From Acidobacteria bacterium Mor1 (GTDB taxonomy: Bacteria; Acidobacteriota; Polarisedimenticolia; Polarisedimenticolales; Polarisedimenticolaceae): a DNA stretch of 64,000 bases. The stretch covers positions 2,518,904 to 2,582,903 of the forward strand of contig CP011806.1 of assembly GCA_001664505.1 (NCBI GenBank). Reading direction: 5' to 3'. Numbering within the stretch: the stretch's first letter is position 1; the number at the start of each line of letters is the position of its first letter. Of this stretch, positions 33,502 to 58,794 are shown in pieces. The position numbers and the translations under genes were made by a program. The notes beneath the pieces were generated by a model. The model did not search any database. It was not told the origin of the DNA and saw only the letters and a program-made list of their open reading frames with translations.

Positions 33502-34353
33502 ATGTCCGAAGCGTCCGCCAAGCCCGCGAACATCCTGGCCGTCGACTCGATCCGCCGGATCTTCGGGCGGAAGATGCCGCCGCTGAACCGCCGGGAACGG
33601 CTGGCGATCCGCCTGACACTGCTGTTGATGTTCCGGCGTTGCCGGGTCGAGAACCCCGAGCACCTGGACCACCCGGGCCCGATGATCGTGGCGGCCAATC
33701 ATCTCAACTCGCTGGAGTCGGCGCTGACCCCGTGCTTTCTGATCTGGTTGCGGGGCGGCCACAAGGTCCACTTCCTGATCGACTGGATGTACCTCTACGT
33801 GCCGATCTTCGGCTGGATGGCCCGCACCGGCGGCTCGATACCGGTCTGGCGCAAGAAGGCCCGCTACAAGTTCTTCGAGCGGATCCGGGAGAACGCCGAA
33901 CAGCGCGACCCCGTGGAGGTCTCACGGGAGATCCTCGAACAGGGAGGCTGGCTCGGGATCTACCCCGAGGCCACCCGCAACCGGGATCCCCACCGTCTGC
34001 GGCCGGGCCACCGGGGCGTTGCACGTCTGGCGCTGGCCACCGGAGCCCCGGTTCTCCCGGTCGGAATCGACTTCGAGGGCAGAGGATCGGCGCAAAAAGT
34101 GCCCTCCTACCCTAGAATGATCTACCGGATCGGCGCACCGCTGCGGTTCGAGGAGGAAGTCCGACTGGCCCGCAGCCAGGAGGGCAGGCGGACCTCCGCC
34201 GTGCGTGAGGCCGAGAAGCAGGTTACCCTGCACGTCATGGAGGCGATCTCCGGCCTGTCGGGCAAGGCCCCGGCCGAGGAGAAGGCCTCCAGCGAACCGA
34301 GGGATTCCCGGAGGATTGGATGGCGAGAGCCGAAGCTACGAACGAGGTCGTGA
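33502..34353 (+). CDS. PlsC-family acyltransferase (variant HX4E motif)
   Basis: The 283-residue protein is a 1-acylglycerol-phosphate acyltransferase relative: AANHLNSLESAL holds the catalytic His67, but the usual HX4D Asp is Glu72. The second block YPEATRNRDPHRLRPGHRGVARLALATGAPVLPVGI replaces EGT by EAT. An N-terminal basic helix and a C-terminal charged tail are present. A TACAAT -10 box lies at 33381-33386. The end overlaps the start of the GNAT-type gene by 34 bases, so they are probably one operon. OlsA-type lyso-lipid acylation is one possible role. Confidence 0.85.
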   Translation: MSEASAKPANILAVDSIRRIFGRKMPPLNRRERLAIRLTLLLMFRRCRVENPEHLDHPGPMIVAANHLNSLESALTPCFLIWLRGGHKVHFLIDWMYLYVPIFGWMARTGGSIPVWRKKARYKFFERIRENAEQRDPVEVSREILEQGGWLGIYPEATRNRDPHRLRPGHRGVARLALATGAPVLPVGIDFEGRGSAQKVPSYPRMIYRIGAPLRFEEEVRLARSQEGRRTSAVREAEKQVTLHVMEAISGLSGKAPAEEKASSEPRDSRRIGWREPKLRTRS

Positions 34354-35051
34354 CGGTCGAAAGGCTGGTTTCCGAGAGCCAGAAGCCGGACGCCCTCGCC
34401 GTGCTGGAAGACGTGTACATCAAGGAGAAGGGGTGGATCGCCGAGAAGGCCCTGGATGCCTTCCCCCACGGCTCCTCGGTCTCCTGGTACATGGCTCGGG
34501 TCGCCGGCAAGCCCGCCGGCCTGCTGCGTCTGCTCTACGATCCGCCGCTGGATTTCCCTCCGGGGTACGACGTCCAGCTCAAGGGCGGGGTCGATTGGAA
34601 GGCCCTGGCCGCCCGGGCGCGAATCGTCGAGGTCGGCCGGTTCATGATCCGCGAGGAGTACCGCGGCAAGCCACGCATCGTGGTCAAGCTGATGGCCGAG
34701 GGCATCCTCGAAGTGGTCCAGCGGGAGTACACCCACCTGCTGACCGACGTGTTCGAGGGAGAGGTCCACTCCCCGCTCAAGTTCCACACCCGCATCCTCG
34801 GCTTCGAGCAGATCGGCACCCACCGCATGGGTGAGCTCAACACCGACGCCAACCGCATCATCCTGGCCCTCGACATCGAAGAGGCCTACCTGCGGATGAA
34901 GCAACGGGGCGGCTGGGTCTACCAGGAACTGACCCAGCGGATCGCCGGCATGCTCGAGGAGCGCATCGCGCTTCGCGAGGCCCAGGGAAGTGGCGACGGC
35001 GCGGCTTCCGACAAGCCGGCGTCTGACTCGTCGTCCGCGTTCTCAAACTAG
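34320..35051 (+). CDS. GNAT-fold N-acyl amino acid synthase-like protein
   Basis: Starting at ATG 34320 with GGAGG 5 bases upstream, the 243-residue protein resembles FeeM/OlsB-type GNAT acyltransferases. It has SWYMARVAGKPAGLLRLLYDPP, then IVEVGRFMIREEYRGKPRIVVKLMAEGIL, HSPLKFHTRILGFEQIGTHR, and a C-terminal helix. Such enzymes transfer acyl groups from ACP to an amino acid or amine to make N-acyl amino acids or lyso-ornithine lipid. The GNAT pattern is seen; the substrate is unknown. It overlaps the PlsC-like gene, which supports a two-step aminolipid synthesis. Confidence 0.75.
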   Translation: MARAEATNEVVTVERLVSESQKPDALAVLEDVYIKEKGWIAEKALDAFPHGSSVSWYMARVAGKPAGLLRLLYDPPLDFPPGYDVQLKGGVDWKALAARARIVEVGRFMIREEYRGKPRIVVKLMAEGILEVVQREYTHLLTDVFEGEVHSPLKFHTRILGFEQIGTHRMGELNTDANRIILALDIEEAYLRMKQRGGWVYQELTQRIAGMLEERIALREAQGSGDGAASDKPASDSSSAFSN

Positions 35052-35084
35052 GCTCCCGTAAACCCGGCGAACTCGGTCCGCTTT

Positions 35085-35255
35085 GTTGGGGCGGCGGGTG
35101 GAGTGGGGGTTCGCCTACGGGCTTCGAGGTGCGGCTCCCTCCAGACTGGCGACTTGCCGGCGGGTTCTCTTTGGACCTGGTCAGAACACCTCATGCGGGG
35201 TTGGGCGCACCAAGGCGCCCTACGGCGAACCCCCACCCCACCCTTCAGCCACAAC
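35085..35255 (+). repeat. Left arm of a large imperfect inverted repeat
   Basis: This arm matches the reverse complement of 35462-35637 with long identical blocks: about 33 bases starting GCGGGGTTGGGCGCACC and about 27 around CCGGCGGGTTCTCTTTGGAC. The arm has its own terminal inverted repeats (GTGGGGGTTCGCC against GGCGAACCCCCAC) and an inner GGGCGC/GCGCCC stem. It looks like one copy of a small palindromic mobile-type repeat. Confidence 0.75.
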
Positions 35256-35461
35256 CAAGGTTGGACGCGGGTCGCCGGGCTCCCGCTCGCTTCCGGGTGT
35301 GGGGTCGAGGCCTCGTTCCAGCGTCTCTGGCTTTGCCGGCTGCGCCGAGGCTCGGGTGGGCCAAGCCAGGGCCTGATCTCCTGTTCGGAGACCCTCCGAT
35401 CAGCTGTGCAGCCGGAAGTGGGCGCCCTGATCGCAACCAGGTCCACCCACGAGCGAAGCGA

Positions 35462-35637
35462 CGTGGTCCGTTGAGGCAAAAGGTGGGAGCGGGGGGGCGC
35501 CGTAGGGCGCCTTGGTGCGCCCAACCCCGCAAAAGTGTTCTGACCAGTCCAAAGAGAACCCGCCGGCAAGTCGCAATGCCGAGAGGGCCGCACCGCGAAG
35601 CCCGTAGGTGCCCCCCCGCTCCCACCGCCCCCCCCCA
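35462..35637 (-). repeat. Right arm of the large imperfect inverted repeat
   Basis: Inverted partner of 35085-35255; the spacer between them is about 205 bases. It too is bounded by terminal inverted repeats (GTGGGAGCGGGGGGGC near 35484 and its complement near 35625). Differences from the left arm are scattered substitutions and one-base gaps, so the copies are not recent. Confidence 0.75.
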
Positions 35638-35812
35638 ACGCGCCCCCCTCCGAAGCGAGCTTTTGTAGGAATTCCGCCCTGTCCAAGGGCAACTCCCCCC
35701 GGTTTCGATAGGGGGTATGGCCGCTCCCCCACCCTCCCGTATCTCTGTCACTGACCTTGATCGAACGAGTGAGTGCCTGAGCGAAACTGTTTCTACCCCC
35801 CTCCTGGCTTAC

Positions 35813-35856
35813 CCCCTCGTGCCCCGCATCTGCGCCGGCGCGAGGGGATTTTTTTT
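35813..35856 (+). terminator. Strong orphan rho-independent terminator
   Basis: CCCCTCGTGCC (35813-35823) pairs with GGCGCGAGGGG (35837-35847), 11 bp with one G-U, and is followed by eight T's after one A. It is 760 bases after the nearest plus-strand gene end (35051) and 109 bases before the next start, so it may end an unannotated small RNA, or a leader, of the repeat region. Confidence 0.75.
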
Positions 35857-35964
35857 GCCTCCGGGGCACCTCGAATCGAGCCCGCCCAGGGAGCCCGGCA
35901 CCCCCGGCAACCCGGTGCTACCATGAGGGTTCAGGCACTTTTTCGTACCAGCCAGAGGTCTTCC

Positions 35965-58717: not shown

Positions 58718-58794
58718 GGCGGCGTAGCTCAGTTGGTTAGAGCGACGGACTCATAACCCGTAGGTCAGTGGTTCAAATCCACTCGCCGCTACCA
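58718..58794 (+). tRNA. tRNA-Met (anticodon CAT), with encoded CCA
   Basis: A 77-nt cloverleaf: acceptor GGCGGCG/CGCCGCT with G1-U72 wobble, D arm GCTC..GAGC, anticodon loop CTCATAA (CAT), T arm AGTGG TTCAAAT CCACT and 3' ACCA. The fifth anticodon-stem pair is A31-C39, a mismatch. Elongator tRNA-Met fits best. The lysidine-modified tRNA-Ile(CAT) is not excluded from the anticodon alone, and an initiator is unlikely because the anticodon stem lacks the three G-C pairs next to the loop. Confidence 0.9.

Follow-up and report, generated by a model that had tools for sequence, protein, structure and literature searches.

A low-copy family of dispersed palindromic repeats with paired but variable outer arms in Acidobacteria bacterium Mor1

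Introduction

Two palindromic stretches that face each other in a gene-free gap of the chromosome of Acidobacteria bacterium Mor1 raise the question of what kind of element they form, a preliminary description having proposed an RNA hairpin, a mobile relic or a recombination site. Here we ask whether the stretches belong to a dispersed family, which part of them is the dispersed unit, and whether their pairing is maintained at the level of RNA or of DNA. The window referred to throughout is the whole analysed stretch of 64,000 nucleotides (contig CP011806.1, positions 2,518,904 to 2,582,903).

Results

The window locus

The window contains two units, U1 and U2, of about 170 nt each, which are inverted copies of one another with 83% identity (BLAST E 2.3e-41), lie about 213 nt apart and face each other, each being in itself an imperfect palindrome (Table 1). 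Both are situated in the intergenic gap that runs from the stop codon of a GNAT-like gene (35051) to the start of an acyl-CoA dehydrogenase gene (about 35965), which bears out the earlier account of two spaced inverted arms in a gene-free region, each with terminal inverted repeats of its own. The further partial symmetry that had been reported between spacer and arms came down to weak short matches, though the spacer does carry a 39-nt hairpin tail (tail B) that recurs beside another copy, U5.

The longest perfect inverted block in the region 35085–35639 measures 34 nt, against 14 nt in the best of 30 mononucleotide shuffles, and the RNA fold of the region is computed at -418 kcal/mol, with 100 shuffles averaging -272 (z = -21). 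All long inverted repeats of the 64-kb window (arms of 28–62 nt, distance of at most 400 nt) fall within this region; the other inverted pairs listed in the window have arms of 20–26 nt (72–90%).

Table 1. Features of the two palindromic units and their tails (window coordinates)
Feature	Position	Strand	Evidence or remark
Unit U1 (left palindromic unit)	35085..35256	+	R1/R2/R3 covariance-model match, R3 133.7 bits; fold -100.7 kcal/mol, z -5.4
Unit U2 (right unit, inverted vs U1)	35470..35639	-	R3 136.8 bits; fold -107 kcal/mol, z -5.9
U1 outer stem, 5' arm	35096..35115	+	terminal inverted repeat; covarying helix 1
U1 outer stem, 3' arm	35224..35243	+	terminal inverted repeat
U1 conserved core, 5' half (TACGGGCTTCGAGGTGCGGC)	35116..35135	+	alignments A3 and A5
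U1 conserved core, 3' half (GGCGCACCAAGGCGCCCTAC)	35204..35223	+	copy alignments
U2 outer stem, 5' arm (unit orientation)	35610..35626	-	terminal inverted repeat
U2 outer stem, 3' arm (unit orientation)	35482..35498	-	terminal inverted repeat
U2 conserved core, 5' half	35587..35606	-	copy alignments
U2 conserved core, 3' half	35499..35521	-	copy alignments
U1 middle block, perfectly inverted in U2 at 35547-35574 (28 nt)	35149..35176	+	inverted-repeat pair I5
Tail A beside U1	35257..35292	+	U1-U3 match continues through tail A: 3859918-3860125 vs window 35081-35292
Tail B, short hairpin beside U2	35428..35467	-	also beside U5, 95% over 39 nt (3861002-3861040)

Family members in the genome

Searched at the DNA level, the 5.985-Mb genome showed related places at 3.860, 4.824 and 5.051 Mb, and with covariance models built from seven (R1), eight (R2) and all nine (R3) aligned copies the family amounts to nine copies (U1–U9) at seven sites, confirming the suggestion that it is dispersed in this genome. 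U8 (1225182–1225322) was found by R1 before its inclusion (45.1 bits, E 1.1e-5) and U9 (3983721–3983865) by R2 before its inclusion (57.8 bits, E 4.4e-9); the two most diverged copies were recovered only by structure-aware models. R3, which all nine copies had served to build, recovered the nine with the two weakest at E 5.7e-18 or better and gave no tenth at E <= 1 among the best 79 of 3558 first-look candidates that were scored, a search that more diverged copies could escape. Since the units are palindromic, reverse-strand model matches of known copies were left out of the counts, as was a match at C1:5062226 (18.4 bits), the middle of which is absent and the stem broken.

A scan for structure only, run over 400 kb of the 5.985 Mb in the form of 20 stretches of 20 kb at even spacing, revealed no comparable palindrome, with none in the shuffled control either; the same scan detected both window units, both units tested in locus L017 (in some form) and those in L018, L019 and L109, and missed the copy in L067.

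Comparing paired with single copies had been put forward as a way of recognising the mobile unit. A single copy stands at five of the seven sites (U3, U6, U7, U8 and U9) and an inverted pair at the other two (U1/U2 and U4/U5), and the mobile or dispersed unit is a single palindrome of about 170 nt. Two units of one locus, U3 and U4, are 85% alike across 193 nt but have unrelated outer flanks. The possibility that the unit encodes a peptide was rejected because indels between copies break the frames.

The two-unit loci appear to share a history, given that U1 resembles U3 through tail A and U2 resembles U5 through the 39-nt tail B, and the identical middle blocks of U1 and U2 (28 and 13 nt) suggest that units sharing a locus have exchanged sequence or been copied from one another; we infer both from sequence comparison. 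In locus L017 (3922–5213, corresponding to C1:3859921–3861212) the order is U3 (+), a small cytochrome c gene, U4 (+) and U5 (-), and with tails A and B taken into account U3 and U5 resemble the two ends of the window pair, enclosing a gene and one more unit.

Anatomy and covariation

From its 5' end the unit begins with GTTG, continues with an outer stem arm (stem of about 17–20 bp), a core half (CCTACSGGCTTCGANGTGCGGC), a middle of about 65–70 nt, the second core half (GCCGCACNAAGGCGCCSTACGG) and the other outer arm, and ends with CAAC. The core is nearly invariant across copies and includes fixed mismatches that form a UAC/UAC loop and a UUCGA/AAGGC loop; in U9, double-sided changes extend into a portion of the core stem. 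The outer arms differ in sequence between copies and keep their pairing within each copy: U7 and U8 have little outer-arm sequence in common with the other copies, and U7 differs from U5 at seven adjacent outer-stem pairs, on both sides.

Across the 30 pairs of the nine copies, pairing holds in 97.0% of cells, against 41–49% in slid controls, and a left outer arm makes 16.1 of 17 pairs with the right arm of its own copy but 11.4 of 17 with that of another copy. Both sides are changed at 17 of the 30 pairs (47 cells), a value that none of 500 shuffles attained, and the copies score 0.493 for covariation where shuffles score 0.129; as the copies within one genome are related and the shuffle control ignores this, the slid control and the comparison within and between copies carry more weight. 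Individual unit folds have z scores from -3.7 to -8.4.

The changes hardly ever involve G-U pairs. In the 20-pair outer stem of U1–U8, 154 of 160 cells are Watson-Crick, one is G-T, three are A-C and two are other, so that covariation through G-U intermediates, as expected of a functional transcribed RNA hairpin, is not seen; read on the opposite strand, the same cells hold three G-U and one A-C. Over nine copies a single G-U is found in 150 cells (17 pairs, three gapped cells dropped), a figure to be read with regard to the small number of cells, the relatedness of the copies and the G-C richness of the genome. In pairwise comparisons of copies, double-sided differences outnumber one-sided ones by 177 pair positions to 41. 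Ordinary compensation in RNA is commonly held to pass through G-U (PMC8794818), and GT pairing has been counted as a sign of transcription in a survey of REP sequences (PMC3733652). The near absence of G-U in the outer stem therefore points to pairing at the DNA level or to copying of one arm in a single step, e.g., by template switching; in the aligned copies both arms would then have been altered at once, or kept complementary as DNA.

Genomic position

Every copy is intergenic and lies on the 3' side of a gene, five of the seven sites being convergent (U4/U5, U6, U7, U8 and U9), two tandem (U1/U2 and U3) and none divergent. The distance from the stop codon of the same-strand gene to the 5' end of the unit is 1 nt for U4, 3 for U9, 8 for U5, 29 for U6, 34 for U1, 56 for U7, 64 for U3 and 250 for U8, while U2 has no gene upstream on its own strand. 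Neither terminator scans nor the sequence indicated a terminator between stop codon and unit for U1, U4, U5, U6 and U9; U3 and U8 are located behind predicted terminators, and U7 behind a terminator-like hairpin noticed by eye and unflagged by the scan. The neighbouring genes (cytochrome c, malectin-domain protein, S9 peptidase, CsgG, TonB-type receptor, HlyIII, NamZ, S49 peptidase and sigma-54 activator) are unrelated, so no shared pathway is apparent. Around the stop codon of the S9 peptidase gene, directly before U6, there is a 16-nt near-direct repeat (CTGGGTgAAGTGATCGC; L018 3835–3885).

Distribution outside the genome

R1 found no copy in 40 other genomes of the class or in 395 other genomes of the phylum. 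R3, applied to the 40 relatives, returned two weak matches, at 25.5 bits (G026) and 20.9 bits (G004), both of which were rejected as chance since many pairs are broken in each; the former lies within an open reading frame, which we take to be a ModA-like gene. A weak blastn match in another relative (G006; 26 nt, E 7.8e-4) has no covariance-model match. The search of related genomes that had been recommended thus yielded no real copy, and of the two things that the preliminary description had considered decisive, copies elsewhere and conservation in relatives, only the first was found: copies exist, but in this genome alone.

Plasmids and phages gave no blastn match. An exact 18-mer of the middle block occurs in genome contigs of a Muribaculaceae MAG and of another MAG, with no palindrome around either, and core patterns in viral contigs gave one match (L098), also lacking a palindrome; these are regarded as chance. 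In Rfam, the window as a whole yields only a tRNA at gathering score (a tRNA gene is located at 58718–58791); the best sub-threshold match has 25.7 bits against a cut-off of 168, and the sub-threshold matches are to microRNA families only. Among titles and abstract beginnings in the open-licence PubMed Central literature, no description of this palindrome family was recognised. Going by the sequences sampled, the family is known from one genome, the sole one of its genus in the sample.

Tests of mobility

A cognate transposase and target-site duplications had been proposed as evidence to look for. No match to Y1_Tnp (PF01797) was found in the genome, in a search whose control was positive in five of 14 known genomes. 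The longest words shared by the flanks are of 6–8 nt in the nine copies and of 4–9 nt in 72 mismatched pairings, the unit ends being fuzzy, and hence no duplication stands above control. Searching the genome with the window region returned short copies only and no longer element with the same ends. As the unit was not found in the sampled relatives, they offer no empty sites for comparison, and at the window locus such a comparison failed because none of the nine other genomes searched within the order contains a match to the GNAT-like gene.

Discussion

Comparison with known repeats

The layout of the family is close to that of REP/BIME and ERIC-type repeats. REP, BIME and REPIN sequences are, according to the survey (PMC3733652), intergenic palindromes downstream of coding regions, mostly between convergent or same-direction genes, and often form inverted pairs able to co-fold, which is matched here by the orientation of the sites and by the inverted pairs at two of seven. 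They are also given there as 20–40 bp in size and high in copy number, in contrast with a unit of about 170 bp in nine copies, and the GT pairing cited for them is almost absent here; nor does this genome have a match to Y1_Tnp, the family of the RAYT transposases that accompany REP elements. In size, palindromic fold, intergenic dispersal and the lack of a transposase of their own, the units resemble the enterobacterial repeats ERIC/IRU (RU-1, 127 bp) and RU-2 (168 bp), as PMC2229807 and PMC2759123 describe them; in this comparison by description they differ from ERIC/IRU in organism group and in outer arms that vary yet stay paired.

Being short, non-coding, dispersed and endowed with terminal inverted repeats, the units are also like MITEs, from which they are set apart by having no fixed terminal repeat sequence, the arms being paired within copies and different between them, and no detected target duplication or partner transposon. 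The resemblance to MITE-like or REP-like units noted at the outset therefore stands for the layout and falls for the size, copy number and RAYT of REPs and for the constant terminal repeats of MITEs. Integron attC sites, too, are conserved more in structure than in sequence and are recognised as a folded single strand. Membership in this class was dropped, given that the end boxes of the unit (GTTG 5', CAAC 3') stand in the opposite order to those of attC and that the copies lie outside cassette arrays; resemblances to a kink-turn and to group II domain V were also dropped. Template-switching RNA hairpins, in which multibase double changes keep stems perfect, offer a proposed mechanism that fits the outer stem (PMC8794818), though reconstructed histories of RNA genes are the subject there and a dispersed bacterial repeat is the subject here.

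A proposed explanation and its rivals

We read these units as a new low-copy REP/ERIC/MITE-like family that spread as single units. In full, the explanation, in which our confidence is evenly balanced, is that of a low-copy, non-coding, dispersed palindromic family with REP/ERIC/MITE-like layout, the hairpin core of which is read by a putative protein and the arms of which are matched by copying; a family that is now immobile or of low activity is favoured. Each copy of about 170 nt would have been inserted singly on the 3' flank of a gene, and would adopt the form of an extended hairpin whenever replication, transcription or transfer leaves one strand free. In this hairpin, a protein would read the nearly invariant core, including the fixed mismatched loops, pairing being the sole requirement on the outer stem, and the arms may have been matched chiefly by copying one onto the other, through template switching in replication or fold-back synthesis during spreading, which the lack of G-U pairs makes more plausible than slow RNA-style compensation. 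We infer past mobility, recognition by a protein and the copying mechanism from these features, and the function of the unit would have to be read from them as well. That template switching can give rise to multibase compensatory changes has been published (PMC8794818); it would tend to erase fixed core mismatches, so selection on the core must also be assumed. Counting against this explanation are the missing Y1_Tnp gene, flanking repeats within the control range, the lack of an empty site and a total of only nine copies.

The main rival is a structured RNA element of 3' UTRs, the hairpin of which would block 3' exonucleases, insulate convergent genes or bind a protein, with the covariation resulting from ordinary selection on RNA. 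This we consider possible if doubtful: seven of the nine units start 1–64 nt past a same-strand stop codon, five of them with no terminator seen in between, and both the conserved pairing and the individual folds are strong, but G-U is confined to one of the 150–160 outer-stem cells, and is outnumbered by A-C on the sense strand, predicted terminators precede U3 and U8 and a terminator-like hairpin precedes U7, U2 has no upstream gene on its strand, and no Rfam family reaches its gathering score on the unit, microRNA families remaining below threshold. A transposase normally requires a fixed terminal repeat, which makes it unlikely that the units are classical MITEs of a DDE or other transposon with its autonomous partner elsewhere in the genome: long terminal inverted repeats, dispersed single copies and no coding capacity would suit this origin, but the terminal sequence varies between copies to the extent that U7 and U8 share little of it with the rest, target duplications do not exceed control and no longer element bears the same ends.

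A DNA-level chromosomal site without mobility, serving cruciform or nucleoid-protein binding, gyrase binding or recombination, would account for an invariant core in a palindromic context and has a parallel in the G-C-rich REP sites described elsewhere as binding several proteins (PMC2817692); seven unevenly spaced sites of mixed orientation, absent from all sampled relatives, would be odd for a housekeeping site, and we regard this as very unlikely. Chance or an assembly artefact, for which no supporting point was found, is scarcely credible in view of nine diverged copies at separate sites of a single-contig genome and of the shuffle, slid-control, fold and scan statistics. A bolder form of the copying explanation, to which we attach little probability, is that the unit spreads via a folded intermediate of one strand, the core of which would fold back and so serve as primer for making the opposite outer arm. 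If true, the palindrome would be regenerated from one arm at each insertion, leaving the arms free to drift with perfect pairing and a fixed core, and a small element would thereby be propagated in a novel manner.

If the preferred explanation of arms matched by copying is right, the family provides a compact natural case of stem arms changing together with almost no G-U intermediates, and it bears on the open question of how much 'compensatory' covariation, commonly read as proof of a functional RNA, is due to arm copying at the DNA level. It also adds a low-copy, lineage-restricted palindromic repeat of a kind missed by ordinary repeat finders and RNA libraries, given that structure-aware models were needed for the two most diverged copies. 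Should the unit be merely a small mobile relic, the practical value would lie in better annotation.

Other features beside the units

The GNAT-like (N-acyltransferase-like) gene upstream of U1 (34320–35051) has a weak Pfam match to FeeM (N-acyl amino acid synthase). Between U2 and the acyl-CoA dehydrogenase gene, a terminator-like hairpin (CCCCTCG...CGAGGGG) followed by eight T can be seen by eye at 35814–35858, unflagged by the terminator scan probably because of its loop size. The intergenic stretch from U2 to this hairpin (35640–35813) contains short inverted repeats (e.g., at about 35670–35740) and may represent a small RNA or a leader.
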